Source: Pseudomonas putida (GTDB lineage Bacteria; Pseudomonadota; Gammaproteobacteria; Pseudomonadales; Pseudomonadaceae). Taken from it: 64,000 bases of DNA. The stretch spans positions 4,450,001 through 4,514,000 of the forward strand of contig NZ_CP113097.1 in the NCBI RefSeq assembly GCF_026625125.1. The letters run 5' to 3'. The notes beneath the pieces were generated by a model. That model ran no database searches and was not told the DNA's origin. It saw only the letters and a list, made by a program, of their open reading frames with translations. Below, in pieces: positions 700 to 43,469 of the stretch. The translations under genes were made by a program, and so were the position numbers. Position 1 is the stretch's first letter. Each line of letters begins with the position of its first letter.

Positions 700-777
700 C
701 AAAGTGACAACCTTGGCAGACAACGAAGGCGGCCCGGCATGCAGGCCACCTGAGGGTGTGGAGGGATCGTGGCCGGA

Positions 778-1071
778 TCAGACCGGGTCGTTACGGCGCA
801 GAAGCTCTTCCGGCAAATGTTCGATGTACTCGTCCTCGGCCGGTGGCATCTGCAGGTGGTAACCCTGGTTATCAAGATTGTCCAGCACCTTGGCAATGTC
901 CTCGCGGGCGAGCTTGCGCTCGGGGCTCAGCACCAGGTCGAAGGCATGTACGGGCGTGCCGAAGAACGGCAGCAGCGCCTCGGGCACGCGCTCCAGGCCC
1001 TCGGCCTTGAGTACGTAGAGGTACATCTCGTTCTTGCGCGGGCTCTTGTAGATCGAGCAGATACGTTTCAT
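778..1071 (-). CDS. YcgL domain-containing protein
   Basis: A 97-residue protein that matches the YcgL family ([10 protein letters not shown] at the start, then MYLYV, and a conserved PPAEDEYIE near the end). The family is small, cytoplasmic, without a firmly established biochemical role, and in pseudomonads is encoded directly after RNase D. The start codon overlaps the stop of rnd by 4 bases (ATGA), so the two are very probably translationally coupled. No signal peptide or membrane segment is visible. Confidence 0.85.
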
Positions 1072-2201: not shown

Positions 2202-2304
2202 GAGGCTCTCCCACAAACGTTGGCGCGCAGTATATACGGCGCGGGCACTGCGGGTGAAACCTGACTGACATCCGCGCCGGCCGCCGGGTAGCTCGCGCTG
2301 CCGG

Positions 2305-2670
2305 TCAGCCTGGCAAGCGATGCTTGGCGTAAGGCTCGCGGTCGATATCCAGCACTTCCACACACAGTTGCAGGTCTAGGCCAGCCTGCGCCGGTATGGC
2401 CTCACGCAGTACCTCCAGCAAGCTGGCGGACAATTGTTTCTTTACCTCCGCCGGGCGCCCGCTGAGGATGGCCAGGCGCACATGGGCGAACGCCCGCTCG
2501 GCTGGCGCAGTGCCCACCCGGTAATGGGCGAACGCCTGGGCGCGGCTTTTGATGTCTGCCTCATCGGCGAACTGGCCGCTGCCGACCAGGGCGTGATTCA
2601 GGCGCAGCAGCAGTACCTCGACATTGAGCTCGCGCAGGTTGTCGCTGTATTCCAGGTTCAGGTGAGGCAT
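2305..2670 (-). CDS. 5-carboxymethyl-2-hydroxymuconate delta-isomerase-like protein (tautomerase superfamily)
   Basis: A 121-residue protein resembling HpaF-type isomerases, which ketonise 5-carboxymethyl-2-hydroxymuconate in homoprotocatechuate degradation. The ATG at 2670 gives MPHLNLEYS, so removal of Met would expose the catalytic N-terminal proline typical of the tautomerase superfamily; this decides the start over longer versions. No other homoprotocatechuate gene lies nearby, so the true substrate may differ. It stands alone between rnd (same strand) and the divergent DUF465 gene. Confidence 0.8.
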   Translation of the reverse strand: MPHLNLEYSDNLRELNVEVLLLRLNHALVGSGQFADEADIKSRAQAFAHYRVGTAPAERAFAHVRLAILSGRPAEVKKQLSASLLEVLREAIPAQAGLDLQLCVEVLDIDREPYAKHRLPG

Positions 2671-2785
2671 GGCACAGGTTCCAGGCGTTGGGGGAAGCGA
2701 CAGCCTACCCCAGTCCCCTAGCCGCGCAAAGGCGGCTATCCTCAAAGGTCAGGACCTTACTGACAACCCTGACAGAGGTGAAGAA

Positions 2786-3022
2786 ATGCCAGTTCCGCAT
2801 GATCTGCTCGCTGACTTGCACGTTACCGCCGATGCATTCCAGGCACGGATAGACAAGGACCCGACGCTGCATGCCCTGCATAAGGAATACAACGCCAAAG
2901 ACAAGGAGGTGGTGGCCGCCGAAGGCAATGGCACCAACGACGATGCCGTCAACCGCCTGCGCAAGGAGCGCCTGCTGATCAAGGACAAGATCGAGCGAAT
3001 CATTCATCCGCCGAAATCCTGA
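2786..3022 (+). CDS. YdcH family protein (DUF465)
   Basis: A 78-residue, highly charged, helical protein (MPVPHDLLADLH, then many Lys/Glu and a C-terminal KDKIERIIHPP). This is the pattern of the short YdcH/DUF465 family, which has no defined function. The start at 2786 follows an AGAGGTGAAGAA ribosome site. It is monocistronic and convergent with the trans-sulfuration gene, with an inverted repeat between them. Confidence 0.8.
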   Translation: MPVPHDLLADLHVTADAFQARIDKDPTLHALHKEYNAKDKEVVAAEGNGTNDDAVNRLRKERLLIKDKIERIIHPPKS

Positions 3023-3044
3023 TGGCTTTCTGCTGAATCAACCG

Positions 3045-3080
3045 CCCTGTCGCCGGCAAGCCGGCTCGCTGGCGACAGGG
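3045..3080. repeat. REP-like inverted repeat between convergent genes
   Basis: Perfect 10-bp arms CCCTGTCGCC (3045-3054) and GGCGACAGGG (3071-3080) enclose the GGCAAGCCGGCT core that recurs in intergenic regions of this window (18.5, 30.4 and 31.8 kb). It lies between convergent stops and could act as a bidirectional transcript end, although no T-run follows. Confidence 0.6.
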
Positions 3081-3090
3081 CCTGCAACCG

Positions 3091-4263
3091 TTACATGCCA
3101 GCCGATGCGTTCAAGGCCCCGTCCAGATCTTCGATCAAGTCCCGGTAATCCTCGATCCCGATCGACAGCCGCAACACGCTCTCACTGATGCCCATCAGCC
3201 CCTTCTGTTCCGGGCTCAGTGAATTGTGCGACATGCTCCAGGAGTGGTTGATCATGCTCTCCACACCCCCCAACGAGTCGGCCAGGACAAATATCTGCAA
3301 GGCCTCCACCAGGCGATTGAGCGCCGCCCGGTCACCGTTCCTGACCTTCATGGCCACCACCGCTCCGCCAGCGCGCATCTGGCGCTTGCACAGTGCGTGC
3401 TGCGGGTGGCTTTCCAGCCCCGGGTAATAGACCTGCTCGATCTGCGGATGGCTTTCCAGGAAGCGTGCCACCTGCAGGGCATTGGCACACTGACGCTCCA
3501 TGCGCACGTCGAGGGTTTTCAGGCCGCGCAAGGCCAGGTAACAGTCGAACGGGCCCTGGATCGCCCCCACGGCCATGCTGATCTTGCGCAGGCGCCCCAG
3601 CAATTCATCGTTGGCAGCCACCACCACGCCGCCGGTCAGGTCGGAGTGGCCGCCAATGTATTTGCTGGCCGAATGCATCACCAGGTCCACACCCAGGGTG
3701 ATCGGCCGCTGGTTCCACGGCGAGCAGAAGGTGTTGTCGATGCAGGTGAGAATACCCCGCGCCCGAGCAAGGTCGCAGACCGCCTTGATGTCGACCAGGT
3801 GCAGCAATGGGTTGGTCGGCGACTCGATCCAGATCAACTGGGTTTCGGGTTTGATCGCCGCCGCTACGGCCGCCACATCGTTGAGGTCGACATAGGTGGT
3901 GGTAATGCCCGAGGTGCGTGCTCGGTAGTCTTCAAGAATGCGGAAGGTGCCGCCGTATACACCGTTCATCACCACCACATGAGCGTCCTTGGGGAGCAGC
4001 TCCAGCACCGTGGCGGTGGCGTTTACACCGGAGGCACATGCCACCGCGCCCACACCCTCTTCAAGTGCCGCGACACAACTTTCATAGGCATGCCGGGTCG
4101 GGTTGCCCACCCGGCTGTAGGCGTATTCCGGGTTGTCATCGAGGCTGCGCTTGATATACGAGCTGGCGGTGTAGATAGGCGGGAAGATCGCGTTGTCGGC
4201 GACACTGAACTGTTCACCGGCGTGAATGGTACGGGTGGCGAAATTGCGCGGCTTGTCGGACAT
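3091..4263 (-). CDS. PLP-dependent trans-sulfuration enzyme (cystathionine gamma-synthase/lyase family)
   Basis: Cytoplasmic PLP enzyme of the Cys/Met metabolism family, 390 residues. The PLP lysine is Lys201 in SASKYIGGHSD, and YSRVGNPT near residue 49 supplies the phosphate-binding Tyr and Arg. From sequence I cannot separate cystathionine gamma-synthase, cystathionine gamma-lyase and methionine gamma-lyase activity. The ATG at 4263 gives MSDKPRNFATRTIHAG, the family's usual beginning; an in-frame ATG 33 bases upstream adds residues without family resemblance. It is divergent from an Lrp/AsnC regulator, an arrangement typical of amino-acid catabolic enzymes controlled by their neighbour. 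Confidence 0.88.
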   Translation of the reverse strand: MSDKPRNFATRTIHAGEQFSVADNAIFPPIYTASSYIKRSLDDNPEYAYSRVGNPTRHAYESCVAALEEGVGAVACASGVNATATVLELLPKDAHVVVMNGVYGGTFRILEDYRARTSGITTTYVDLNDVAAVAAAIKPETQLIWIESPTNPLLHLVDIKAVCDLARARGILTCIDNTFCSPWNQRPITLGVDLVMHSASKYIGGHSDLTGGVVVAANDELLGRLRKISMAVGAIQGPFDCYLALRGLKTLDVRMERQCANALQVARFLESHPQIEQVYYPGLESHPQHALCKRQMRAGGAVVAMKVRNGDRAALNRLVEALQIFVLADSLGGVESMINHSWSMSHNSLSPEQKGLMGISESVLRLSIGIEDYRDLIEDLDGALNASAGM

Positions 4264-4337
4264 GGTCAGGCCCATTTGGCAGATGTAAGTGCGCAACTAT
4301 CGCACAATCACCTGCCGCCACAACGCCCGTGGTGGCG

Positions 4338-4380
4338 GGAATTTTTTCTATCGTTGGGGTAATCTGGGGAATATTTTACT
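4338..4380. promoter_or_regulatory. Candidate Lrp-type binding repeats between divergent genes
   Basis: Two similar AT-rich stretches, GGAATTTTTTCTA (4338-4350) and GGAATATTTTACT (4368-4380), are spaced 30 bp apart, about three helical turns, in the gap between the trans-sulfuration gene and the Lrp gene. Lrp-family proteins bind such phased AT-rich sites. The role is inferred. Confidence 0.3.
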
Positions 4381-4398
4381 GACCGCCAGCGGGTTTCC

Positions 4399-4860
4399 AT
4401 GGACAGTTTCGACCAGCACATCCTCACCCTGCTCCAGCGCGACGCGTCGCTCTCGCTCAAGGATTTGGCCGAAGCCGTCAACCTGTCCACCACCCCCTGC
4501 TGGAAGCGGGTCAAGCGCCTGGAAGAGGACGGCTACATCCTCGGCCGCGTCGCCCTGCTCGACCCCGACCGCCTGGGCCTGGGCCTGACGGTGTTCGTCC
4601 AGCTCAAGACCCAGCGCCACGACAGTGCCTGGTTGGAGCAATTCGCCGAGACGGTGAAAGGCTTCGAGGAGGTGATGGAGTTCTATCGCATGTCCGGGGA
4701 CTGGGATTACATGCTGCGGGTGGTGGTGGGCGATATCGCTGCCTACGACCGGTTCTATAAAAAGCTGATCACCAGCACCGACGGGCTCTCCAACATCACG
4801 TCCAGCTTTGCCATGGAACAGATGAAATACACCACGGCTTACCCGGTCCACAGGCCCTGA
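4399..4860 (+). CDS. Lrp/AsnC family transcriptional regulator
   Basis: A 153-residue regulator. The N-terminal winged helix-turn-helix (residues about 1-55) contains LKDLAEAVNLSTTPCWKRV, and a RAM/AsnC ligand domain follows with the G-D-Y-D-Y-type segment MSGDWDYML. Such proteins form octamers and sense amino acids. The divergent PLP trans-sulfuration gene 135 bp away is the most likely target, so the effector may be a sulfur amino acid. A second, distinct Lrp regulator lies at 53644. Confidence 0.9.
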   Translation: MDSFDQHILTLLQRDASLSLKDLAEAVNLSTTPCWKRVKRLEEDGYILGRVALLDPDRLGLGLTVFVQLKTQRHDSAWLEQFAETVKGFEEVMEFYRMSGDWDYMLRVVVGDIAAYDRFYKKLITSTDGLSNITSSFAMEQMKYTTAYPVHRP

Positions 4861-4882
4861 TCGGTGCCAGCTCAGCACCCCT

Positions 4883-7210
4883 TCACTGCGCCGCCACCGC
4901 TTCGATCCGGTTCCCCGCCTTGGCCTTCTCGAGCCGAATCGCAATGAATTTGGAGGTCGGCGTATAGGTGCCTTCGCCGTAACTTTCCAGCGGCACCAGC
5001 GGGTTGGTCTCCGGGTAGTAGGCCGCCGCCTGCCCATCAGGGATGTCGTAGGGCACCAGGCGGAACCCCGACACCTGGCGTTCGACACCGTCCTCCCACA
5101 GCGACACCAGATCGACATGCTCACCCGGCTCGAAGCCCAGGCGGCGGATGTCGGCCTCGCTGACGAACACCACTTCCCGCAGGCCAAACACGCCCCGGTA
5201 ACGATCGTCCAGCCCATACAGCGTGGTGTTGTACTGGTCGTGCGAACGCATCGTCTGCAGGATGAGGTCCGGCTTGTCGCCACGGGCGAGCACCTGGGCG
5301 TTGACCAGATGCTCGGGCAACGGGCTGGCACTGAAGCGCGCCTTGCCGGTTGCCGTGCGCCAGTTGCGCTCGGCAGCACTGTTGCCCAGGTGGAAACCAC
5401 CTGGGTGCTGCAGCCGCTCGTTGAAGTTGGCGAAACCGGGGATGACATCGGCGATCATGCTGCGAATACGGCCATAGTCGGCCACCGCGTATTCCCAATC
5501 GATGGGCTTGTTGCCCAGCGTGGCCTTGGCCATGCCGGCGATGATCCAGGGTTCGGACCGCATGTGGGGTGAACGCGGGCGCAGCTGGCCATGGGAGATA
5601 TGCACCATGCTGAAGGTGTCTTCCACGGTCACGCCCTGCGGCCCGCCGGCCTGCATGTCGATCTCGGTGCGCCCCAGGCAGGGCAGGATCAGCGCATCGC
5701 GGCCAGTGACCAGGTGCGAACGGTTGAGTTTGGTGGATATCTGCACCGTCAGCGCACAGTTGCGCAGGGCCGCGTGGGTGCGGGGCGTATCCGGCGTCGC
5801 CTGGGCGAAGTTGCCACCCAGCGCGATGAACACCTTGGCGCGCTGTTGCTCCATGGCCTGGATCGCCAGCACCGCGTTATGCCCATGGGCGCGAGGTACG
5901 CGGAACTGGAAGCGTTTTTCCAAGGCATCGAGCAACGCCGCCTTGGGTTTCTCGTCGATCCCCATGGTGCGGTCGCCTTGCACGTTGCTGTGGCCACGCA
6001 CTGGCGAAAGGCCCGCGCCGGGCTTGCCGACGTTGCCGCGCAACAGCTGCAGGTTGACGATTTCCTGCACGGTAGGCACCGAGTGACGGTGCTGGGTGAC
6101 GCCCATCGCCCAGCACATGATCACCCGCTCGGCCTTGCGGTACATGCGCGCCGCCAGCTCGATCTCGGCCAGGGTCAGGCCGGACTGCTCGACGATATGG
6201 TCCCACGAGGTGGCATCCACGGCCGCCAGGTAGGCGTCCACACCGCTGGTATGCGCGGCGATGAAGCCATGGTCGAATACCGCTGGTTCCCCCTTGGCCT
6301 GGGCTTCGCGCTCCCATTGCAGCAGGTACTTGGCAATGCCGCGCATGGCCGCCATGTCGCCGCCCAGGGCTGGGCGGAAGTAGGCGGTATTGGTCGGTTC
6401 GGAGCCGTTGCTGAGCATTTCGAACGGGTGCTGCGGGTGCTGGAAGCGCTCCAGGCCCCGCTCTTTGAGCGGGTTGAAACACACCACCTGGGCGCCGCGC
6501 TTGACCGCTTCACGCAGCGGTTCGAGCATGCGCGGGTGGTTGGTACCGGGGTTCTGGCCAATGACGAAGATCGCATCGGCCAGCTCCAGGTCATGGAACA
6601 CGACCGTGCCCTTGCCTACGCCGAGGGTTTCCGACATGCCCACGCCACTGGCCTCGTGGCACATGTTCGAGCAGTCGGGGAAGTTGTTGGTGCCGTAGGC
6701 GCGGACGAACAACTGGTAGAGGAATGCCGCTTCGTTGCTGGCCCGGCCGGAGGTGTAGAACTCAGCCTCATCGGGCGATTCCAGCGCCTGCAAGTGCCGG
6801 GCGATCAAGGCAAAGGCCTCTTCCCAAGTGGTTTGCACATAGTGATCGGTGGCAGCGTCGTAACGCATCGGGTGCGTGAGGCGGCCTTGGTATTCGAGCC
6901 AGTAGTCGGTCTGGTCCTTCAGCGCGCTTACGCTGTATTTGGCGAAGAAGGCCGGGTCGACCGAGCGACCGGTCGCTTCCCAGTTGACCGCCTTGGCGCC
7001 GTTTTCGCAGAACTTGACCATGTCGCTTTCCGGCGACTCGCCCCAGGCGCAGCCGGGGCAGTCGAACCCGCCGTTCTGGTTGGTCTTGAGCATGGCCCGC
7101 AGGTTCTTGAAGGCGTTGTCACTGCCCAGCCAGCTCTTGGTCACGCTCTTGAGCGCGCCCCAGCCGGCGGCAGGCCCCTTGTAGTCCCTGATATGTTCGT
7201 CCTGGCTCAT
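4883..7210 (-). CDS. FdhF/YdeP family molybdopterin oxidoreductase
   Basis: Large (775-residue) cytoplasmic oxidoreductase related to the formate dehydrogenase alpha subunit and E. coli YdeP. Cys51, Cys54 (CPGCAW) and Cys68 sit where the N-terminal Fe-S cluster of this superfamily is bound; molybdopterin domains follow (YTSGRASNEAAFL, VIGQNPGTNHPRM) and a C-terminal dinucleotide domain holds MRSHDQYNTTLYG. No Tat signal is visible. The ATG at 7210 (MSQDEHIRDYKGP) has a TGAGGA site 8 bases upstream; a GTG 15 bases earlier is less likely. Formate dehydrogenase activity is not proven for this branch. It is divergent from moaA and shares a promoter element with moaB. Confidence 0.88.
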   Translation of the reverse strand: MSQDEHIRDYKGPAAGWGALKSVTKSWLGSDNAFKNLRAMLKTNQNGGFDCPGCAWGESPESDMVKFCENGAKAVNWEATGRSVDPAFFAKYSVSALKDQTDYWLEYQGRLTHPMRYDAATDHYVQTTWEEAFALIARHLQALESPDEAEFYTSGRASNEAAFLYQLFVRAYGTNNFPDCSNMCHEASGVGMSETLGVGKGTVVFHDLELADAIFVIGQNPGTNHPRMLEPLREAVKRGAQVVCFNPLKERGLERFQHPQHPFEMLSNGSEPTNTAYFRPALGGDMAAMRGIAKYLLQWEREAQAKGEPAVFDHGFIAAHTSGVDAYLAAVDATSWDHIVEQSGLTLAEIELAARMYRKAERVIMCWAMGVTQHRHSVPTVQEIVNLQLLRGNVGKPGAGLSPVRGHSNVQGDRTMGIDEKPKAALLDALEKRFQFRVPRAHGHNAVLAIQAMEQQRAKVFIALGGNFAQATPDTPRTHAALRNCALTVQISTKLNRSHLVTGRDALILPCLGRTEIDMQAGGPQGVTVEDTFSMVHISHGQLRPRSPHMRSEPWIIAGMAKATLGNKPIDWEYAVADYGRIRSMIADVIPGFANFNERLQHPGGFHLGNSAAERNWRTATGKARFSASPLPEHLVNAQVLARGDKPDLILQTMRSHDQYNTTLYGLDDRYRGVFGLREVVFVSEADIRRLGFEPGEHVDLVSLWEDGVERQVSGFRLVPYDIPDGQAAAYYPETNPLVPLESYGEGTYTPTSKFIAIRLEKAKAGNRIEAVAAQ

Positions 7211-26889: not shown

Positions 26890-27363
26890 ATGGCAGTAGC
26901 ACTCGACCAACCCGTCGCCGACTTCCAGGCCCAGGCCACCGGCGGCCAGTCCGTCAGCCTGGCCGAGCTCAAGGGCCGTCAGGTAGTCGTGTATTTCTAC
27001 CCAAAGGACAGCACCCCAGGCTGCACCACCGAAGGCCAGGGCTTTCGCGACCAGCACGCAGCGTTCGAAGCGGCCAACACCGTGGTGTTCGGTGTGTCGC
27101 GCGACGGCATCAAGTCGCATGAGAACTTCAAGGCCAAGCAGGGCTTCCCGTTCGAGCTGATCAGCGACAAGGACGAGGCCCTGTGCCAGCTGTTCGACGT
27201 GATCAAGCTGAAGAAGCTGTATGGCAAGGAATACATGGGCGTGGACCGCAGCACCTTCCTGATCGACAAGGATGGCGTGCTGCGCCAGGAGTGGCGTGGC
27301 GTGAAGGTACCAGGCCATGTGGATGCCGTCCTGGCAGCGGCCCAGGCGCTGAACCAGCGCTGA
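26890..27363 (+). CDS. bcp: Thioredoxin-dependent thiol peroxidase (Bcp/PrxQ)
   Basis: Peroxiredoxin reducing hydroperoxides in the cytoplasm, 157 residues. The peroxidatic Cys45 is in STPGCTTEG. The position five residues later, which is the resolving cysteine in E. coli Bcp, is Gln50 here; the only other cysteine is Cys99. So this enzyme either uses Cys99 for resolution or works as a 1-Cys type. It starts 11 bp after gcvR and should be cotranscribed with it. Confidence 0.93.
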   Translation: MAVALDQPVADFQAQATGGQSVSLAELKGRQVVVYFYPKDSTPGCTTEGQGFRDQHAAFEAANTVVFGVSRDGIKSHENFKAKQGFPFELISDKDEALCQLFDVIKLKKLYGKEYMGVDRSTFLIDKDGVLRQEWRGVKVPGHVDAVLAAAQALNQR

Positions 27364-27444
27364 GCTGCAAGCTGCAAGCTGCAAGCTGCAAGCAAAAGCG
27401 GATCGCATGGACACCGCTATCTGCTTTTACTTGCAGCTTGCAGC
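27364..27444. repeat. Heptamer tandem repeats in inverted arrangement
   Basis: Four exact GCTGCAA units (27364-27391) face two exact TTGCAGC units (27431-27444). The inner segments AAAAGCGGAT and ATCTGCTTTT are also roughly complementary, so the whole 101-bp gap between convergent bcp and perM can fold into one long hairpin. Probably a bidirectional terminator or a mobile repeat. Confidence 0.75.
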
Positions 27445-31902: not shown

Positions 31903-33411
31903 TCAGCCCTGCGGCTGCATCGCCGCAAAGTGCGCCGCGAGGATCATGGCGAATTCTTCAACGGTCATCTTCTTGCCATTGAAGTCGACCATGCCATCGA
32001 CGTAATGCAGGCTAGCCACCACGTCATTGCCCTGCACGGTGGCCATGCCGCTCTGCAGCGCCATCAGGCCGACCATCTCACCCGCCTGGCTGGATTGCAT
32101 GGCAATCGCCTGGGCATCGGTCTGCCCTTGCAGCAACGCCTGCAAGGTCGCCAGGTCACCTATCATCGGTTTGGACAGCGACAGCTTGCTCTTCACCTGA
32201 GTGATCAACTGCTTGCTCAACTGGTCAGGCGGCAGGTCGAAAGAGGTGGGGCTGGCGAAATCCATCGCCAGGTTGAACCGGCTCTCACCGTTGGCTGTCT
32301 TGAACGAGAGATTCTCCACCGCCACCTGCGGCTTGGATGCCAACAGCTGCTTCAAGTCGCCCTGAAAAGCCGCCTTCTCCTGTTCATCCATCTGGATCTG
32401 CGGGATAGGCTGCCCTGCAGCGGCAGCCTGCTCGAACTCCGGCAGGTGGGCCTGATACCACTGCGACAGCGACTGGAAGGCCGGAGCGTTGAGCGACTTG
32501 ATGCTGACCGCCATCTGCCCGCTGCCGACTGCTCGGCCATCCCAATTGATGTCCGCGACCTTGTAATCCACACGACCACCGACGGTGTCGGGGCCATCGA
32601 GGTTCTGCACGGCGTGCTGCTCCAGGCCTTTGAGCAGCAGGACCTGCTGCTTGGGCCCCAGCGTCACCTTGGCTTCGGCCAGCAACACATCGACGTTACC
32701 GACATAGATCGCATCATGCTGGGTGGCGGCCAGTTCACCGCCGATTTTCAGCCCCTTGAGCTCGAACGTGGCCGGTGGGTGATCCTCCCCAACCATCTTC
32801 ATTTCGAAACGATCGGCAGCGCCATGGAATTTCGAGGCTTTACCTTCACTGTCGCCACTGACCTGCAACTGCATACCTGAAAAATCGAGGCTAGTGCCGT
32901 TGTCTTCGGCCAGCTTGACCGGCGCCAGGAGGATGCTGCCATCGACACTGCCGTCAAAGCCCAGGCTGGTTCGCGAGCTGACCGGGGCCTTGTCGCCGGC
33001 GGCGGCGAACCAAGGCGCGGTGAAGTCGTCCTTGTCCAGCGAACTGTTGCTGGCTGCCAGCACCGGTATCAGTTTGAAGGCTTTAACCCGCGACCAAGGG
33101 AAAGGGCCGTGCTCGATATGGTCGGTGACACCCACCTCGAAACTGACCGGCTCACCGTCAGACAGGCGAATGTCGCGGACCTTGAGGCGGTAGTGCGCGG
33201 TACTGGTGAAAAGGTGCTGCTCAAGCGAGGCCACTTCGATGGTCATGCTGCCGCCAACCCCGACAAGGGCCTTCTTCAGCTGAGCATTACTCTGGTTGAC
33301 GGTGCGCTCCAGCTGCGCAGGCAGCTGCTTGCCGGTGTACCAGGCGCCGGCTGTGGTGACGACGGCAATGGCGATGGCCAGGCCGGAAAGGATGCCTACT
33401 GATTTCTTCAT
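31903..33411 (-). CDS. YdgA family protein (DUF945)
   Basis: A 502-residue envelope protein with an N-terminal hydrophobic segment (SVGILSGLAIAIAVVTTAGA, residues 4-23) that acts as a signal anchor. The rest is periplasmic and matches DUF945/YdgA by the QLERTVNQSNAQL start and repeats of beta-strand-rich sequence. The function is unknown. It is alone on the minus strand with a 547-bp gap to the divergent puuP gene. Confidence 0.85.
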   Translation of the reverse strand: MKKSVGILSGLAIAIAVVTTAGAWYTGKQLPAQLERTVNQSNAQLKKALVGVGGSMTIEVASLEQHLFTSTAHYRLKVRDIRLSDGEPVSFEVGVTDHIEHGPFPWSRVKAFKLIPVLAASNSSLDKDDFTAPWFAAAGDKAPVSSRTSLGFDGSVDGSILLAPVKLAEDNGTSLDFSGMQLQVSGDSEGKASKFHGAADRFEMKMVGEDHPPATFELKGLKIGGELAATQHDAIYVGNVDVLLAEAKVTLGPKQQVLLLKGLEQHAVQNLDGPDTVGGRVDYKVADINWDGRAVGSGQMAVSIKSLNAPAFQSLSQWYQAHLPEFEQAAAAGQPIPQIQMDEQEKAAFQGDLKQLLASKPQVAVENLSFKTANGESRFNLAMDFASPTSFDLPPDQLSKQLITQVKSKLSLSKPMIGDLATLQALLQGQTDAQAIAMQSSQAGEMVGLMALQSGMATVQGNDVVASLHYVDGMVDFNGKKMTVEEFAMILAAHFAAMQPQG

Positions 33412-33958
33412 GAATAGAACCGATTGATGTCCATATGGGCGTGTTCACAGCCAGGAGCTGCGCGGGAGCAGAATAGTATCACTCCTACTCCTGGCCCGAG
33501 GGTCCCACGCGGACGCAATGGGCAATCGCGACCTGCCTGACGCACGCTTGGGAATCTTCCTATTCGTTAAATTTTACGAACATCCGCATCGATCATAACC
33601 GCAAAAAAGCGCGCAAAAACCGAACATTTAGGCCAATAAATCGATAATTATTTCAATCTAGCAACATCTTGTCATGTTTAACTTGACACCAACCTACCCA
33701 TCGTTTTTTATTTTCACCACCTTGCCCAGCGCCACTCCACGAAGAAGAACAGACGCGCCGTCATGATGCCTCACCGCCCCTGCCCGCACGCTCCACCTTC
33801 CTAGACCAGGCACTGCCAGCTCGACCCCGGCGCATCGCCTGCGTCTACCTCTGCTCCAACAATAAAGGTGAACAACATGGAGCCCACCCGCTCGCCATTG
33901 CCGCATGCGCACTACAACTCGCCCGCCGTTCACGCCCAGCCGAAGGAGCCATGCCAGT
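33412..33958 (+). promoter_or_regulatory. Long divergent intergenic region with candidate puuP promoter
   Basis: A 547-bp gap with an AT-rich centre (33556-33715). A near-consensus -35 TTGACA (33683-33688) stands 17 bp before TTTTAT (33706-33711), pointing to puuP with a leader of about 240 nt. A near-palindrome TTCGTTAAATTTTACGAA (33563-33580) lies upstream. No coding region or structured RNA was recognised. Confidence 0.4.
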
Positions 33959-35311
33959 ATGCAGCCTGACCACAGCGCCGCCGGCAACGGCCAACTGCGT
34001 AAAACCTTGCGCCTCTGGCACGTGATCATCATCGGCCTGGCTTACCTGACACCGATGACCGTGTTCGACACTTTCGGCATCGTCTCAGGGATTACCGCAG
34101 GGCACGTGCCCAGTGCCTACATCCTGGCGCTGGCCGGCATCCTGTTCACCGCCGTGAGCTATGGCACCCTGGTGCGCCGCTTCCCGCAATCGGGGTCGGC
34201 CTACACCTACACACAGCGCGCCATCAACCCGCATGTGGGCTTTCTGGTCGGCTGGTCGTCGCTGCTCGACTACCTGCTGCTGCCGATGGTCAATGCCTTG
34301 CTGGCCAAGCTCTACCTGTCGGCCATGTTCCCCGAAGTGCCGGAGTGGATCTGGGTAGCGGGCTTCGTCACCCTGATCAGCCTGATCAACATGCGCAGCG
34401 TCAACCTGGTGGCACACTTCAACCTGCTGTTCGTGGCCGTGCAGGTCGCGATCATCGCCGTATTCATCTACCTGTGCGTGCGTGGCCTGGACCAGGGTGA
34501 AGGCCTGGGGACCGCGTGGAGCCTGCTGCCGTTCGCCGACAGCCAGACCCAGTTCAGCGCCCTGGCGGCCGGTGCGACCATCCTGTGCTTCTCGTTCCTG
34601 GGCTTCGACGCCGTGACATGCCTGTCCGAGGAAACCCGCGACCCGGCCAAGACCATCCCACGGGCGATCTTCCTGACTGCACTGATCGGCGGCCTGGTGT
34701 TCATCACCGTGTCGTACTTCATCCAGGCCTACTTCCCGACCATGGCACGCTTCCATGACCAGGAAGCTGCGCTGCCAGAAATCGCCCTCTACGTGGGTGG
34801 CAAGCTGTTCCAGTCGATCTTCATCGCCTGCACGGTGATCAACACCATCGCCTCGGGCCTGGCTTCGCAGACCAGCGTCTCGCGCCTGTTGTACGTGATG
34901 GGGCGTGACAAGGTGATCCCGGCCGGCATCTTCGCTCGCCTGCACCCGCGCTACAAAACACCGGTGCTGAACATAGCCGTGGTCGGCCTGATATCGCTGT
35001 CGGCGATCTTCTTCGACCTGGTTACCGCCACCTCGATCATCAACTTCGGGGCGCTGGTGGCGTTCAGCTTCGTCAACCTATCGGTGATCAACCACTGCTA
35101 TCTGCGTGAAGGCAATCGCCGGGGGCTGGCGAACAAGCTCAGGTACCTGGTACTGCCGACCATCGGTTTCTGCATCATCGTGTCGCTGTGGCTGGACCTC
35201 AACGAACACTCGTTGATGTTCGGCGGGGTATGGGCGCTTCTTGGCCTGGTGTATCTGGCCTGGCTGACCAAGGCCTTCACTGCCGCCCCGCCGAACTACG
35301 TTGCCGAATGA
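33959..35311 (+). CDS. puuP: Putrescine importer of the APC family (PuuP-like)
   Basis: Inner-membrane proton symporter, 450 residues and 12 hydrophobic helices, closely similar to E. coli PuuP as remembered: [16 protein letters not shown] in the first helix, [17 protein letters not shown], and RLLYVMGRD. Putrescine is the expected substrate. The ATG at 33959 has GAAGGAG ten bases upstream. The next gene, 66 bp downstream, is a polyamine-type chemoreceptor, so uptake and taxis for the same compound are encoded side by side. Confidence 0.85.
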
Positions 35312-35377
35312 CACTTGCCATCTCCACCGCCCGCGCCTGAACGCGGGCGTTGTCCTTGCTCGAAAAGGAACGTTCTC

Positions 35378-37444
35378 ATGCCGCTGCGTCGCCTTTCCAT
35401 CCAGTGGAAGATCACCTTGCTTGCCGGCCTGTGCCTGCTGGCCATCGTCGCACTGCTGGTGGCCACCTCGCTGACCCAGGCGCAGCGCAGTGCAGCCCTG
35501 GTCAGCCAAGCCAACAGTGAAATGCTCGACCACAGCGCACGCCTGCGCCTGCAGGCCCAAGGCGAGACCCAGACCCTGCGCATTCAGCGCTACTTCATGG
35601 ACGCCTACCAGTACGCCAACGGCTTTGCCCGCCTGGTGCAGGTGCTCAAAGCCCACGGCGCTAGCGACCTGCGCGCCGAATTGACGCGCCAGGCGCGCAC
35701 CGCGCTGGCTGGCAACCCGGACGTGATCGGGCTTTATGTGGTGTTCCAGCCCAACGGGCTGGACCACCAGGACAGCCAGTTCGTCGCCCAAGACGCGGTG
35801 GGCAGCAACGACAGCGGGCGATTTTCGCTGTACTGGTCGCAACCGAGCCCCGGCACCCTTGAGCAGGAGGCGATGCCTGAAGCGATGCTGGCCGACAGCA
35901 CGATCGGCGCCAACGGCGTAGCACAGAACCGCTGGCTGACCTGCCCGCAGGATACGGCCAAAGCCTGTGTCGTCGAGCCCTACCTCGATGAGGTCAATGG
36001 CCGCCAGGTATTGATGACGAGTATCGCCCTGCCCCTGCTGGAAGGCGGCAAGGTAGTGGGCGTGGTGGGCCTGGACATCGGCCTGGACAACCTGCAGCAG
36101 CTGAGCCTGGCGGGCCGCCAAGAGTTGTTCGATGGCCAGGGCCAGGTGAGCATCGTCAGCGATACCGGCTTGCTGGCTGGCCACAGCCGCGACGCCGGCA
36201 AGCTGGGCAAACCGCTGGACAACGACGTGGCGCAGGGAGTACTTCGCGTCGGTCGCCCGTTCGCGCCAATCCCGGGCGCCGCCCCCTGGCAGGTGCTGCT
36301 GGAACTGCCCGAAGCCGTGTTGCAAGCCCCTGCCGTCGCTCTCAACCACAGGCTGAGCGAACACAACCAAAGCGCCAATCTGACCAGCCTGTTGATCGGC
36401 CTGGGTGCCGCGATCGTCGGCTTGTTGCTGGTCTGGCTGACGGCACGCGGTGTGACCCGGCCGATTCTGGCCGTAGCGGCACGCCTGGAGGATATCGCCA
36501 GCGGTGAGGGCGACCTGACTCGGCGCCTGGACTACGCGCGCCAGGACGAACTGGGCCTGTTGAGCGGCTGGTTCAACCGTTTCCTCGACAAACTGCAACC
36601 TGTGATTGCCCAAGTCAAAGGCTCGCTGCTCGAAGCCCGCGGCACCGCCGACCAGTCTGCGGCCATCGCCAGCCAGACCAGCAGTGGCATGCAGCAGCAG
36701 CAACGCGAGATCGAGCAAGTGGCAACCGCCGCCAACGAGATGAGCGCAACGGCCCAGGATGTCGCCCACAATGCAGCGCAAGCAGCCCAGGCCGCACGTG
36801 GCGCCGACCAGGCGAGCCGCGAAGGCTTGGAACTGATCGCCAGCACCCGCCAGACGATTGACAACCTGGCAAGCGGGATGGATGCCGCCATGGGCGAGGC
36901 GCGCGCACTGGAGCAGCGCAGCGAGCAGATCGGTTCGGTACTGGAGGTGATCCGCGCCATTGCAGAGCAGACCAACCTATTGGCCCTCAACGCCGCCATC
37001 GAAGCGGCCCGCGCTGGCGAGGCCGGGCGGGGTTTTGCCGTGGTGGCCGACGAGGTGCGTAGCCTGGCGCAGCGCACCCAGGTATCGGTAGAGGAAATCC
37101 GCCAGGTCATCGAGGGCCTGCAGCAAGGCACTCAGGATGTGGTCGGCGCCATGCACGATGGCCAGAAACAGGCGCAGGCCAGCGCCTTGCAAATGGAACA
37201 GGCACTGCCGACGCTGCAGCGCATAGGTGAAGCCGTGGCGGTGATCAGCGACATGAACCTGCAGATCGCTTCAGCCGCCGAAGAACAAAGCGCGGTGGCC
37301 GAGGAAGTGAACCGTAACGTGGCCGGCATCCGCGACGTGACTGAATCGCTCTCGGGCCAGGCTGACGAATCGGCGCGCATCAGCCAAGCGCTGAACCGCC
37401 TGGCCAATCAGCAGCAGGCGTTGATGGAGCAGTTTCGCGTCTAG
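35378..37444 (+). CDS. mcpU: Methyl-accepting chemotaxis protein, McpU-like polyamine chemoreceptor
   Basis: A 688-residue chemoreceptor: first membrane helix at about residues 10-33, periplasmic double-Cache sensor to about residue 335, second helix near 350-370, HAMP, then the signalling domain with the conserved hairpin tip [19 protein letters not shown]. Its sequence and its position beside puuP match McpU of P. putida KT2440, which senses putrescine and other polyamines. The start has AAAAGGAA before it. The last 280 bases are the left end of a 538-bp tandem duplication; the gene itself is intact. Confidence 0.9.
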
Positions 37445-38240
37445 TCTGTACGGGCTCCATCACCGGCTCGCCGGCAATGGAGCCCGCCCAGGCAACCCAC
37501 CTTTTGAATGAGTTTCACCCATGGAAACACCCAACAGATCCGCCTTCTTCGACATCACCAGCGAACAGGGCCTGCTACGCACCTCGATCGCCGTCACCCT
37601 GTTCATCGCCACAATCGGCATCGCTTTCGGCCTGGCTTCCGGTTCGTTCTCGATCATTTTCGACGGTGTCTACTCGCTGGCCGACGCTGGCATGAGCGGC
37701 CTGAAACAGGCGCAGGCCAGCGCCTTGCAAATGGAACAGGCACTGCCGACGCTGCAGCGCATAGGTGAAGCCGTGGCGGTGATCAGCGACATGAACCTGC
37801 AGATCGCTTCAGCCGCCGAAGAACAAAGCGCGGTGGCCGAGGAAGTGAACCGTAACGTGGCCGGCATCCGCGACGTGACTGAATCGCTCTCGGGCCAGGC
37901 TGACGAATCGGCGCGCATCAGCCAAGCGCTGAACCGCCTGGCCAATCAGCAGCAGGCGTTGATGGAGCAGTTTCGCGTCTAGTCTGTACGGGCTCCATCA
38001 CCGGCTCGCCGGCAATGGAGCCCGCCCAGGCAACCCACCTTTTGAATGAGTTTCACCCATGGAAACACCCAACAGATCCGCCTTCTTCGACATCACCAGC
38101 GAACAGGGCCTGCTACGCACCTCGATCGCCGTCACCCTGTTCATCGCCACAATCGGCATCGCTTTCGGCCTGGCTTCCGGTTCGTTCTCGATCATTTTCG
38201 ACGGTGTCTACTCGCTGGCCGACGCTGGCATGAGCGGCCT
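37165..38240 (+). repeat. Perfect 538-bp tandem duplication
   Basis: Unit 1 is 37165-37702, unit 2 is 37703-38240, and I find no difference between them. Each contains the 3' end of mcpU, the 75-bp gap with a hairpin (GGGCTCCAT/ATGGAGCCC arms), and the first 182 bases of the cation-efflux gene. The junction shows only one base of shared sequence (G). Confidence 0.95.
37521..37982 (+). CDS. Chimeric ORF: cation-efflux N terminus fused to McpU C terminus
   Basis: A 153-residue open frame made by the tandem duplication. Residues 1-61 are identical to the start of the CDF exporter at 38059 (first membrane helix and part of the second); the fusion at 37702/37703 is in frame with the last 92 residues of McpU, the signalling-domain return helix ([20 protein letters not shown]). 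It keeps the exporter's start and upstream region and the mcpU stop. Whether it is expressed or stable is unknown; it lacks both a full transporter and the hairpin tip. Confidence 0.6.
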
Positions 38241-39018
38241 GTCGCTGGTGGTGGTGAAGCTGATCACTTCCCATGCCACCAGCCGGCACGTGTCACGCAA
38301 GCTGCGCGAACGCTTCACCATGGGTTTCTGGCACCTGGAACCGATGGTGCTGGCGCTCAATGGCGTCCTGCTCAGCGGTGTGGCGCTGTACGCCCTGATC
38401 AATGCCGTCAGCAGCCTGCTCGAAGGCGGCCGCCACCTGGAGTTCGGCATCGCCATGGTTTATGCGGCGCTGACCGTGATCGCCTGCGCGACCATCGCTG
38501 CGGTCGAAGCCCGGGCCAACCGCCAGTTGGACTCGGATTTCGTGCGTATGGACGTCAAGGGTTGGGTAATGTCGGCCAGCATCACCGCAGCGTTGCTCGT
38601 CGCCTTCTGCTTCGGCTTTGCCGTGCAGGGCACGCAGTGGGCGTGGGTATCGCCGTACATCGACCCGGCGGTGCTCGCGCTGGTGTGCCTGGTCATCATT
38701 CCCTTGCCGTTGTCGGTGGTGCGCCAGGCCATGGCGGACATCTTCCTGGTCACGCCTGGCGACCTGATGCTGCACGTGGATGAGGTGGCCCGTGCGTTTG
38801 TCGCACGCCACGGCCTGGAATCCTATCGGGCGTATGTGGCCAAGGTTGGCCGCTCTCGGGAGATCGAACTGTATTTCATCGTGCCCAAGCACCTTCCAGC
38901 CAAAAGCATCGAAGCGTGGGATGCGCTGCGCTGTGAAGTCGGCGATGCGCTGGGTGGTGAGGGGCCGGACCGCTGGTTGACGGTCGTATTTACCGCAGAC
39001 CCTGAGTGGGCTGAATAA
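38059..39018 (+). CDS. Cation diffusion facilitator family transporter
   Basis: A 319-residue inner-membrane metal-proton antiporter of the CDF family with six predicted helices and a C-terminal cytoplasmic domain. The [13 protein letters not shown] segment in helix 2 corresponds to the metal-site motif, and a matching VRMDVKGWVMSA lies in helix 5. The first 182 bases fall in the second unit of the tandem duplication and supply an intact start. The metal cannot be predicted. The gene sits after mcpU and is the last core gene before the accessory block. Confidence 0.85.
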   Translation: METPNRSAFFDITSEQGLLRTSIAVTLFIATIGIAFGLASGSFSIIFDGVYSLADAGMSGLSLVVVKLITSHATSRHVSRKLRERFTMGFWHLEPMVLALNGVLLSGVALYALINAVSSLLEGGRHLEFGIAMVYAALTVIACATIAAVEARANRQLDSDFVRMDVKGWVMSASITAALLVAFCFGFAVQGTQWAWVSPYIDPAVLALVCLVIIPLPLSVVRQAMADIFLVTPGDLMLHVDEVARAFVARHGLESYRAYVAKVGRSREIELYFIVPKHLPAKSIEAWDALRCEVGDALGGEGPDRWLTVVFTADPEWAE

Positions 39019-39224
39019 GGCGGGCCAACAGCACGGGGGTGCCGCTTGGCGCTGATCTGCAGGTGCCCTGCTTGGTGATACCCCTACCGCTAGTCGGATA
39101 TTTCTGAGCGTTCTGAAGCAACGGCTAGCCTCCAGCCTAGCGTCAGGGATAACGCTGAACATTCGGTCCATGAAGGGCCAGTACGCCTCGTCGTCCCGAC
39201 GCTTTATCTGCTGAGGAGACGATA

Positions 39225-40565
39225 ATGAAAATAACCCTGAAACGGTTGGCGTGCCTGGGAGCGAGCTTCACCAGTGCGCTGGCCATGGCCGATGCGGCCA
39301 GCCCGCCGGTGCTTTCACCTGCAATTCCCTTCGACGTCAACGCTACATCCCCCTTCACCCTGGACAACCTGCAACACGCTTTCGATGTGCTGTCGTGGCA
39401 GACATTCGTTGCCCTGAACTGGCCCGCCGGCGCCGACGGCAGCGCCAACACCTCGGCGAAGATCGGCGCGCCGGGGCAAACGGTGTGGGAGTCGTGGAAG
39501 GAGAGCTACGAGATATTCCTGCCCCAAGGCCAGAAGCCGGTCGCCTGGAACCAGAAGGCACCACTGCCCGCCGCCTGCCAAGGCAAGGGTGACCTGCCCG
39601 TGCTGCAACAGATGGGAAAGGTCGCCGGTGTGCTCGACGAATTCATCCAGCCATTCAAGACCGGCCCACTGGTGGACCAGAACGGCACCTACACGCGCAA
39701 CGCGATCATGGTCAACCAGCCGATGTTCGACGACATCGTCAACAATGGCCTGTACAGCAAGGAGGGCCAGCAAGCGTTCCTGAGCAAGCCCGATAACCGC
39801 ATCGCCTTTGCCTGCGGCTCGCAAGAGGCCCAACAGGTCGGCGCGATCATGGTCAAGTCGTCCTGGAAGGTACTCGGCGGCAACGACAACGCCCAGGACT
39901 TCCACGCCGTCGACGCCTTGGTCTACACGCCCGGCAACGCCGACCCGAACAAGGGCGCGGTGATACCCGAGTCGTGCAGCGCGCAGAAGGTCGGGCTGGT
40001 CGGCCTGCACATCGTGCACAAGACCAAAAGCGCGCCGCAGTGGATATGGTCGAGCTTCGAACACGTGCGCAACGTGCCGGAAAAGACCACGCCGATGAAC
40101 GAGCGCAAAGGCCCCTACCTGTTCTACGACGCCCAGGCCAGCGACCGCCCAGTGAACGAGCCACCAGCGCAGCCGTGGGACCCCTCGAAGAAAGCCACGC
40201 CTTCGCAGATTGTGCGCGAGATCCCGCTCACCGCTGCGACCCAGCAGCTCAACGCGCAGTGGCAAGGCGCGCTCAAGGGCACTGTGTGGGCCAACTACCA
40301 GTTGATCAGCACCCAGTGGCCGACCGATGCCGCCGAGGACTGCCAAGTACCGTCGCCAACCAATCCGCTGGGCACGCCTGCGCCGAACTTCCTGGCCAAC
40401 GCCACGCTGGAAACCTACAACCAGGGCACTACGCCGCAAGCTTCATCCAGTTGCATGGAGTGCCACAACAACGCGACCACCCGCGTGACCCAGTCACCGC
40501 GCACCAGCTTCGCCGATTTCACCTTCCTGCTTGAACGTGCCCAATCCACTGGCGCCAAGGAGTGA
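39225..40565 (+). CDS. Secreted monohaem cytochrome c family protein of a three-gene dehydrogenase
   Basis: A 446-residue protein with a signal peptide (MKITLKRLACLGASFTSALA) and one C-terminal haem-binding motif CMECH near residue 414. The large N-terminal region, starting SPFTLDNLQHAFDVLSWQTF, has no motif I recognise beyond similarity to cytochrome-like partners of GMC dehydrogenases. It is followed at 4 bp by a small subunit and then a GMC flavoenzyme, so it likely accepts electrons from the flavin in the periplasm. GAGGAG precedes the start. No other haem motif is visible. Confidence 0.75.
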   Translation: MKITLKRLACLGASFTSALAMADAASPPVLSPAIPFDVNATSPFTLDNLQHAFDVLSWQTFVALNWPAGADGSANTSAKIGAPGQTVWESWKESYEIFLPQGQKPVAWNQKAPLPAACQGKGDLPVLQQMGKVAGVLDEFIQPFKTGPLVDQNGTYTRNAIMVNQPMFDDIVNNGLYSKEGQQAFLSKPDNRIAFACGSQEAQQVGAIMVKSSWKVLGGNDNAQDFHAVDALVYTPGNADPNKGAVIPESCSAQKVGLVGLHIVHKTKSAPQWIWSSFEHVRNVPEKTTPMNERKGPYLFYDAQASDRPVNEPPAQPWDPSKKATPSQIVREIPLTAATQQLNAQWQGALKGTVWANYQLISTQWPTDAAEDCQVPSPTNPLGTPAPNFLANATLETYNQGTTPQASSSCMECHNNATTRVTQSPRTSFADFTFLLERAQSTGAKE

Positions 40566-40569
40566 TGCC

Positions 40570-41061
40570 ATGAGCGACACTAACCTGCAGAACTTCATCG
40601 ACCTGTCCGCCATCCTCACCGGCCTGTCAGCAGAGCTGCTGGCGCCTTCGGTGGACCCGATCAACCTGCCGCCGGTGTTCTTCGCCACCGCCCAGCAAGG
40701 GATGGGGACCGCAGCGTTCAGCAACCTGCTGGAGCTGTACGTCAGTATCAAGGGCCAAACCCCGGCGCAAATCGCCAGCGCCGTACTCGGCAATGCGGAC
40801 CCGCAGATCGCCCAAGGCGCCCGTTCGATCATGAAGCTGTGGCTGCTCGGCAGTTGGTACCAGCCATATGACCAAGGCAGCAAGCGCAAGGGTGACACCC
40901 GCGTGGTGTCTGACCAAGCCTACAAGCAAAGCTGGGCGTGGAAGATCGCCCAGTCTCACCCCATGGGCTATAGCCAGTACCACTTCGGCTACTGGGCCGA
41001 GCAGCCACCGACCCTCAAACAATTCACCGGTGTCGACGCCAAGGAAGGGCAGCAGCCATGA
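40570..41061 (+). CDS. Small (gamma) subunit of FAD-linked dehydrogenase, sorbitol dehydrogenase family
   Basis: A 163-residue helical protein resembling the small subunit of three-component FAD dehydrogenases (sorbitol or gluconate dehydrogenase type): FIDLSAILTGLS at the start and MKLWLLGSWY in the middle. These subunits usually carry a Tat signal that takes the folded flavoprotein to the periplasm; none is present here. It starts 4 bp after the cytochrome gene, with an AAGGAG site, and overlaps the GMC gene by 4 bp. Confidence 0.75.
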   Translation: MSDTNLQNFIDLSAILTGLSAELLAPSVDPINLPPVFFATAQQGMGTAAFSNLLELYVSIKGQTPAQIASAVLGNADPQIAQGARSIMKLWLLGSWYQPYDQGSKRKGDTRVVSDQAYKQSWAWKIAQSHPMGYSQYHFGYWAEQPPTLKQFTGVDAKEGQQP

Positions 41062-43316
41062 GCAACGTACACACCCAGAATATCGAAACCGCCGATGTGA
41101 TCGTGGTGGGCGCCGGCATGGCCGGCAGCGTCATGGCCTACCAGTTGGGCCTGGCCGGCTTGAAAGTGCTGGTGCTCGAGTCGGGCCCGGCAATCCCGCC
41201 CAACCGCAGCGAGTATCTGGAGCGTTTCTACACTGCCGTGCTCAAGTCGCCGGAGTCGCCCTACCCGCCGGAGCAGACCGAGCAGACCCCGGCCACCCAG
41301 TTCGCCCCGCGCGCGACGATCCAGGACTTGATCACCGCCGGCAGCACCGACCCTGACAAGGTGCAGAAAAGCTACCTGGTTCAGAAGGGGCCGCAACTGT
41401 TCGCCAGCACCTACGAACGGGTAGGCGGCGGCACCATGTGGCACTGGATGGGCACCGCCCTGCGCCTGTTGCCCAACGACTTTCGCATGCGCACTGCGTA
41501 CAACGTCGGGGTCGACTGGCCGATCAGCTACGACGACCTGCAGACCGCCTACTGCCGCGCCGAGGAGGAAATGGGCGTTTCCGCCGATGTCGCCTCGCAG
41601 GCCTACCTGGGCGTGACCTTCCCGCAGGGGTATGAATACAGCATGCACGGCATCCCGCCGTCGCTGGTCGACCAGGGCCTGGGCAAGAACGTCACGGGCG
41701 CGGTGTACCAGAGCCCGGAGAAAGCACCGGACGGCAAGCCGTACCCCGGTGTCACGCTCAACGTCCGGCAGACCCCGGCCGGGCGCAACTCACAGAGCGA
41801 CAACGGCCGCCGGGTGTGTGCCGGTAACACCAGCTGCACGCCGATCTGCCCGATCCAGGCCAAGTACGACGCCACCGTAACCATGGCCAAGGCACTGGAT
41901 ACCGGCAATGTGCGCATCCTTTACCAGACCGTGGCGAGCCAGGTGCAGGTCGATGCCAATGGGGTCACGGGGATTGATTTCATCCAGTACCAGAACAATG
42001 GCACGCGTCAGAACGGCACGGCCCAGGGTAAGCGCTACGTGATCGCCGCCCACGCGATCGAAACGCCGAAGCTGTTACTCAACTCCATCGGCCCCAACAG
42101 CCCTAAAGGGGTCGCCAACAGCAGCGGCCAGGTTGGCCAGGCGTTGGCGGACCACCCGGTGTACCTGGCCTGGGGCCTGATGCCCGAAGGCGAGCCGCTG
42201 TTCCCGTTCCGCGGGCCGTTGTCCACCTCGGGGATCGAGGATATGCGCGATGGCCCGTTCCGCAGCCAGCGTGCCGCTTGGCGTATCGAGATCGGCAACG
42301 AAGGTTGGAACTGGTCGGTGAACGACCCCTACGCCTCGGTCTGCGATTTCATCGACGGCACCAACGACGGCGGCGCTAACCCCAACAACCTGGCGTTGTC
42401 TGGCGAGGCGCTGGTGCAGCAGCTCAACAGCGTGCTGACCCGCCAGTTCCGTCTGGGCTTCTTGATCGAGCAGGTGGAGGAAGACCCTGACCATGCGCTG
42501 TGCCGGGTGGAGCGCAGCACGGAGTTCACCGACGGCCTGGGCCTGCCCCGCCCGCAGATCACCTACGCGCTGTCCGACTACACCAAGGAGGGCTTCAAAC
42601 AAGCGCGCCTGGCCGCCACCCATATCATCACCAAACTGATGGGTGCCACCGAGCTGACCAACCTGAACCCTGAACTCAAGCCCGGTTCGCAAACGGTGTT
42701 CAACTACGACGGCCAGAACTACGCGTTCTTCGGCGCTGGCCACCTGATGGGCACCTACCGCATGGGCGCGGACCGCACCAAATCGGTGGTGGACAAGGAC
42801 CAGCGCAGCTGGGACCACCCCAACCTGTTTCTGGTCGGCGACGGCGTATTCCCCACCACCGGCACGGCCAACCCAACCTTGACCATCACCGCGCTGACGT
42901 TCCAGGCGGCCGACGTGGTGGCCAGCGACCTGCTCAAACGCACGCTGCAGGTGCAGGCCAACCAGGCATGGCAGGCCACGGGCATGCAGGTCAATGGGCA
43001 AAGCTGGCAGCTGGCGGTGTGTACGGGCGGGCAGTGGACGGCCAACCCGGCCACCGGCATGGTAGGCGCGAAGGGCAACCCGGCGTTGATCGCCAAGCCG
43101 GGCTACACCCTGCCGGGGCAGAACGAAGGGGCATTGATCGGGCGCATCGGCAGCAACGGCGTGCCGTTCCTGGTGGGTGATCAGGTGCAATTGCCGCGCG
43201 GCCAGCAGGGTGAATTGCAGCTGTGCATCAACGACGACCTGGCTGGGCGTTATGGGGCTGGCCTGAGCGATAACCTGGGCAGCCTGTCGGTGGAGGTGCG
43301 TTTCGGGGCGCTCTAG
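41058..43316 (+). CDS. GMC family FAD oxidoreductase with C-terminal PA-IL-like lectin domain
   Basis: A 752-residue protein. Residues about 12-625 are a GMC dehydrogenase: FAD motif VVVGAGMAGSVMAYQLG, substrate-side GGGTMWHWMG, and the C-terminal GMC block with GHLMGTYRMG, DGVFPTTGTANPTLT. Residues about 630-752 resemble the calcium-dependent galactose lectin LecA/PA-IL: a GALIGRIGSNG strand pair and a calcium-loop segment NDDLAGRYGAGLSDNLGS, matching the LecA pattern of Asn-Asp, Gly-x-Tyr-Gly, Asn and Gly-Ser. No signal peptide is visible. It forms an operon with the cytochrome and small subunit. The substrate is likely a sugar, polyol or glycoconjugate (inference). Confidence 0.82.
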   Translation: MSNVHTQNIETADVIVVGAGMAGSVMAYQLGLAGLKVLVLESGPAIPPNRSEYLERFYTAVLKSPESPYPPEQTEQTPATQFAPRATIQDLITAGSTDPDKVQKSYLVQKGPQLFASTYERVGGGTMWHWMGTALRLLPNDFRMRTAYNVGVDWPISYDDLQTAYCRAEEEMGVSADVASQAYLGVTFPQGYEYSMHGIPPSLVDQGLGKNVTGAVYQSPEKAPDGKPYPGVTLNVRQTPAGRNSQSDNGRRVCAGNTSCTPICPIQAKYDATVTMAKALDTGNVRILYQTVASQVQVDANGVTGIDFIQYQNNGTRQNGTAQGKRYVIAAHAIETPKLLLNSIGPNSPKGVANSSGQVGQALADHPVYLAWGLMPEGEPLFPFRGPLSTSGIEDMRDGPFRSQRAAWRIEIGNEGWNWSVNDPYASVCDFIDGTNDGGANPNNLALSGEALVQQLNSVLTRQFRLGFLIEQVEEDPDHALCRVERSTEFTDGLGLPRPQITYALSDYTKEGFKQARLAATHIITKLMGATELTNLNPELKPGSQTVFNYDGQNYAFFGAGHLMGTYRMGADRTKSVVDKDQRSWDHPNLFLVGDGVFPTTGTANPTLTITALTFQAADVVASDLLKRTLQVQANQAWQATGMQVNGQSWQLAVCTGGQWTANPATGMVGAKGNPALIAKPGYTLPGQNEGALIGRIGSNGVPFLVGDQVQLPRGQQGELQLCINDDLAGRYGAGLSDNLGSLSVEVRFGAL

Positions 43317-43331
43317 GCAATGTCGTACCAA

Positions 43332-43368
43332 CCCCACACTGCTCGGGCAATGGCGCAGCAGTGTGGGG
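43332..43368 (+). terminator. Hairpin after the GMC operon
   Basis: Perfect 12-bp arms CCCCACACTGCT (43332-43343) and AGCAGTGTGGGG (43357-43368) lie 16 bp past the GMC stop. No clean T-run follows, so termination strength is uncertain. Confidence 0.6.
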
Positions 43369-43469
43369 GTGGTCTCTCAGCCCAGGTGGGCCAGCGGTTC
43401 GCGGCAACGTGCGCGCAATTCACGCGCACTTTCGTCCGCTGGGGGTCACTTGACGTTGTCTGCAGCCTC

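Follow-up and report, generated by a model that had tools for sequence, protein, structure and literature searches.

A perfect 538-bp tandem repeat across a chemoreceptor gene and a cation-efflux gene in a Pseudomonas putida genome: recent duplication or assembly artefact

The locus and its genes

The window, which is the whole stretch of DNA analysed here, comprises 64,000 nucleotides of a Pseudomonas putida genome. It contains a gene for a McpU-like chemoreceptor, followed on the same strand by a gene for a cation-efflux protein of the CDF (cation diffusion facilitator) type. The end of the first gene and the beginning of the second are both contained in a unit of 538 bp, which is present twice. 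The features discussed below are as follows.

35315..37444, + strand: chemoreceptor gene, McpU-like (mcpU), intact, 709 codons, listed from a TTG; best PDB sequence match 6f9g
37165..37702, + strand: copy 1 of the 538-bp unit, made up of the 3' end of mcpU, the 76-bp intergenic region and the 5' end of the cation-efflux gene
37446..37491, + strand: copy 1 of the intergenic hairpin, which resembles a degenerate REP-like palindrome
37521..37982, + strand: hybrid open reading frame of 153 codons, exporter residues 1-61 followed by McpU residues 618-709
37702..37703, + strand: duplication junction, with 1 bp of exact homology and an imperfect GGCC[A/T]G
37703..38240, + strand: copy 2 of the 538-bp unit, identical to copy 1 at 538/538 positions
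37984..38029, + strand: copy 2 of the intergenic hairpin, between the hybrid and the intact exporter gene
38059..39018, + strand: cation-efflux (CDF-type) gene, intact, 319 codons

A profile search identified HAMP, PDC/Cache sensor and MCP signalling domains in the chemoreceptor, and a PDB sequence search gave McpU (6f9g, E 1.3e-153) as the best match of solved structure. Because the domain set and the best structural match agree, the name McpU is sound. The true start of mcpU may lie some codons downstream of the TTG. The exporter matches the Pfam Cation_efflux profile (E 3e-27), and it matches the NCBIfam CDF superfamily model below the cut-off; used as a query in a PDB sequence search, it gave no matches. 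Neither gene is interrupted between its start and its stop codon; the original prediction was right to call them intact.

No sigma-70-type promoter was predicted in 35200-39300. Three terminator-like sites were predicted, none of them in the region between mcpU and the exporter gene, and an Rfam search of the window returned two tRNAs and nothing else. Downstream of the exporter is an open reading frame of 446 codons (39225-40565) that matches nothing in Pfam or NCBIfam; after it come a weakly matching FAD-SLDH-like subunit and then a GMC oxidoreductase.

The gene order is found in other bacteria. Using the exporter as query, 135 loci were found in relatives, of which the best 80 were analysed. 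In 43 of these 80 an mcpU-like gene lies directly upstream of the exporter on the same strand; by their titles 41 are from Pseudomonas, one from Pantoea (L045) and one from Paucimonas (L078). At another locus (L079) the only MCP match is partial and lies on the opposite strand, and the remaining 36 have no MCP match at E 1e-10.

The duplicated unit and its junction

The two copies are adjacent and arranged head-to-tail. An exact self-comparison of the window at a period of 538 gives a single uninterrupted identical run of 539 bp (37165-37703), which confirms the perfect tandem duplication that the original prediction had described. Identity over 538 bp cannot be due to chance. A repeat search of the window recovered 300 nt of the pair, with the spacing unchanged.

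The exact homology at the junction is 1 bp, a G, in agreement with the earlier statement that junction homology is nearly absent. This is what would be seen at many arbitrary positions: random site pairs have 0 bp of homology in 55% of cases and 1 bp in 27%. The imperfect sequence GGCC[A/T]G, which matches at 5/6 positions across the junction, amounts to slightly more resemblance than the single base. Among 20,000 random pairs of sites, 4% or 11% do as well, according to the span considered; the match hints, weakly, at a join of biological origin. The ends of the unit are clean, with no filler or unmatched bases.

The hybrid reading frame

The list of open reading frames bears out the in-frame hybrid of 153 residues, of which 61 are from the exporter and 92 from McpU. 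The exporter part had been described as the first membrane helix. A helix is indeed present, and the hybrid has a single hydrophobic stretch (17-50). The exporter part is nevertheless longer than the first helix, because it reaches the second helix of a single-sequence AlphaFold model, which consists of one helix (15-40) and a long helix (43-152). The model has a mean pLDDT of 78.9 and a pTM of 0.37. A Foldseek search with it against solved folds gave 20 matches, none at E <= 0.001.

The parent proteins belong to the McpU chemoreceptor and CDF exporter families, whereas the hybrid is a fragment of each. It covers positions 2-42 of the exporter profile (41/198 positions) and 114-172 of the MCP profile (59/172 positions), in both cases below the Pfam cut-off. 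The complete set of CDF membrane helices is absent, and the hybrid does not qualify as a functional exporter. The tip of the MCP hairpin is where CheA and CheW bind. Its motif lies at residues 553-569 of McpU; the McpU part of the hybrid begins later, at residue 618, so the hybrid is missing this binding region and does not qualify as a functional MCP either. For this reason the suggestion that the fragment might disturb receptor arrays is weak, and we find no support for it.

A hybrid of this kind arises whenever the breakpoints of a tandem duplication fall inside two adjacent genes on the same strand, and one time in three it is in frame. Removal of one or two bases at the junction would give products of 80 or 81 codons. 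At odds of one in three, the in-frame join is no sign of selection. The hybrid keeps the start of the exporter gene together with its upstream DNA, and could therefore be translated.

Comparison with relatives

Only one other genome of the same species was found, that of P. putida HAI-2. A second candidate (G215) showed 0/2000 differences from HAI-2 over the bases compared; the two were treated as one strain and counted once. In HAI-2 the locus is collinear and has a single copy of the unit. HAI-2 matches the window over 32521-37703 and 37698-43414 at about 99%, and the unit is the only part of HAI-2 that the two alignments share. The HAI-2 assembly is a draft and may have collapsed a tandem copy, yet its contig is unbroken across the locus. 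One copy is thus, on this alignment, the ancestral state.

The HAI-2 unit differs from the unit here at 7/538 positions, and its flanks differ at 53/4644 and 44/5174. About 7 differences would be expected between the two copies, barring gene conversion, if the duplication were as old as the split from HAI-2. None is seen, so the duplication is probably much younger than that split. The original prediction, that the lack of divergence reflects either a very recent event or an artefact, is supported.

The same junction was sought more widely. A 30-base pattern spanning the junction, with three mismatches allowed, was searched for in 398 Pseudomonas genomes sampled evenly from a larger set; it was found in one, which is the genome itself. 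The idea that the locus is a case of gene birth lacks support: such hybrids are a by-product of any duplication of this layout, and the junction was seen in a single genome of the 398. When 221 bp of junction DNA were compared with 57 relatives, 36 matched; the genome itself matched over the full length and the other 35 in part, mostly over the MCP half. One relative (G013) gave a weak match of 45 bases across the junction point in this search (82%, E 1.5e-4). A plasmid search returned one partial MCP match and no record covering 80% of the query. When the hybrid was compared by tblastn with the best 80 of the 135 loci, many alignments continued past residue 61. They were read as overruns and not as hybrids, because their positions correspond to the 3' part of mcpU or the 5' part of the exporter gene.

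Other tandem copies

A scan for tandem copies, defined as a perfect run of at least 90% of the period for periods of 30-6000, was carried out on 1.264 Mb of the genome (21.6%). Apart from the 538-bp unit, it found no near-perfect tandem copies of at least 200 bp in this 21.6%, although a single artefact of circle closure would escape such a scan. It did find three short tandem runs, with periods of 35, 45 and 45. A BLAST self-comparison of the same 1.264 Mb added a 157-bp pair and a 5390-bp pair at 99.3%, the latter being two neighbouring rRNA operons.

In the relatives, 845,580 bp around the 80 loci (periods to 5000) contained no near-perfect tandem copies, and 800,000 bp from 14 single-contig relatives contained two tandem copies, whose perfect runs measure 104 and 84 bp. 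As a control in these 14 relatives, a planted 538-bp copy was recovered. Over the total of about 2.9 Mb scanned in the genome and its relatives, there were no further near-perfect tandem copies of at least 200 bp.

Origin of the repeat

The explanation that we prefer, and to which we would give an even chance, is one very recent tandem duplication of 538 bp with a short junction. Ends or strands at 37165 and 37703 would have been joined at one exactly matching base, either through template switching or through end joining between two sister chromosomes. The outcome would be two intact genes with the hybrid reading frame at the junction. The hybrid might be translated, giving a membrane-anchored lone helix without a signalling tip. 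It would most likely be neutral, and the copies would be prone to loss by recombination between them. Genes for Ku and for a LigD-type ligase are present in the genome, so non-homologous end joining is possible. This mechanism had been proposed at the outset, but the junction does not favour it over template switching or over a mis-joined contig overlap.

Duplications of this kind have been described. Spontaneous duplications are common in growing cultures; in one study their frequency was deduced to be about 20% (PMC3411829). The closest parallel is in Staphylococcus aureus, where tandem duplications are reported to create nusG'-'sigH and rplK'-'sigH hybrids (PMC3486894). There too the duplication covers neighbouring genes and leaves the parents intact, and the in-frame hybrid consists of the 5' end of the downstream gene joined to the end of the upstream gene (PMC3486894). 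In the account given there, units of 1210 and 1888 bp are flanked by repeats of 8 and 7 bp, compared with 1 bp for the 538-bp unit here; there the fusion was obtained by selection and blotting revealed its protein (PMC3486894), whereas the present hybrid is known from its sequence.

Almost as likely, in our judgement, is an artefact of assembly, in which contig ends overlapping by 538 bp, whether of two contigs or of a single circular one, were joined without being merged, the chromosome itself having a single copy. This also is a known kind of event. The genome of Vibrio fischeri ES114, in its version 1.0, is reported to have contained 14 false tandem expansions of 318-1264 bp in 4.3 Mb, disproved by PCR; as here, a tandem repeat in a finished genome gave rise to extra or truncated reading frames, and comparison with a strain of the same species exposed the suspect loci (PMC2330054). 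Some long-read assemblers are described as leaving duplicated sequence where a circle is closed (PMC6966772). The record begins with the first codon of dnaA, which suggests that the circle was probably closed and then rotated, and its original ends could lie at the duplication. The single copy in HAI-2 is in keeping with an artefact, and the chance-level homology of 1 bp counts against a real duplication in that it fits a mis-joined overlap equally well. On the other hand, at the density found in V. fischeri about 4 cases would be expected in the 1.264 Mb scanned and no second one of at least 200 bp was found, which makes a systematically mis-joined assembly unlikely, although a one-off artefact escapes this argument. 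The V. fischeri cases are described as typically having a few unique bases at their ends, whereas there is one case here in the 21.6% scanned, and its junction is clean (PMC2330054). In the comparison of assemblers, the overlaps left by Canu and NextDenovo are given as thousands of bases and not hundreds, and several other assemblers closed circles cleanly or lost bases (PMC6966772). In our judgement a one-off artefact and a real duplication are nearly evenly matched, with the artefact slightly behind.

A selected, functional fusion gene, in which the hybrid is beneficial through, for example, altered receptor signalling or exporter dosage, is very unlikely. The 153 codons are open, with the native start and upstream DNA, and the model shows one helix followed by one long helix. 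Against this, the copies are undiverged, the junction occurs in one genome of 398, the receptor tip is absent, both family profiles are covered only in part and below their cut-offs, no solved fold matches at the threshold used, and an in-frame join needs no selection. We give equally little credence to a just-born hybrid that is expressed while its copies are still unmutated, with the exporter helix in the membrane and a long McpU tail that alters McpU dimers or adaptation.

If reads confirm the recent duplication, the locus would be a clean natural example of a short tandem duplication that creates a hybrid reading frame while sparing the parents, without any laboratory selection that is known. 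If reads disagree, it would be a reminder that false tandem copies in finished genomes can mimic new genes.

Palindromes and other repeats

Folding of 82 nt at the 76-bp intergenic region gives a strong hairpin of -36.3 kcal/mol (z -4.7, equalled by 0/200 shuffles). On visual comparison it looks like a degenerate version of the REP-like palindrome common in this genome, although none of its 14-mers recurs elsewhere in the stretches scanned. Palindromes of the REP-like type are found at the equivalent position in some of 15 aligned relatives (for example L039, L044 and L069). The second hairpin, lying before the intact exporter gene, might reduce read-through into the exporter gene if both genes share a transcript.

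The commonest 16-mers counted in the 1.264 Mb belong to the core of the REP-like palindrome (GCCGGCTTGCCGGCGA / TCGCCGGCAAGCCGGC). In the window this core, in one form or the other, is found at 3050, 18533, 18700, 30372, 31757 and 31863. Another REP pattern gave no matches in the window; it was the 16-mer counts that revealed the present palindrome family. The sequence CGCGGGNNNNCCCGC, with up to one mismatch, occurs nowhere in the whole window, against about 8 occurrences expected from shuffles.

Other repeats were also seen. The heptamer AGCTGCA is found in tandem in the window at 27363-27393 and 27432, and the 1.264 Mb scanned hold 13 tracts of at least two exact copies, with both strands counted. 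The two neighbouring rRNA operons (L141, 9004-20000; about 5.709-5.720 Mb in the genome), 99.3% alike over 5390 bp, each consist of 16S, two tRNAs, 23S and 5S, with an extra 5S behind one of them. At L159, 19628-19788, there are 45-bp tandem repeats, which perhaps encode 15-residue protein repeats.
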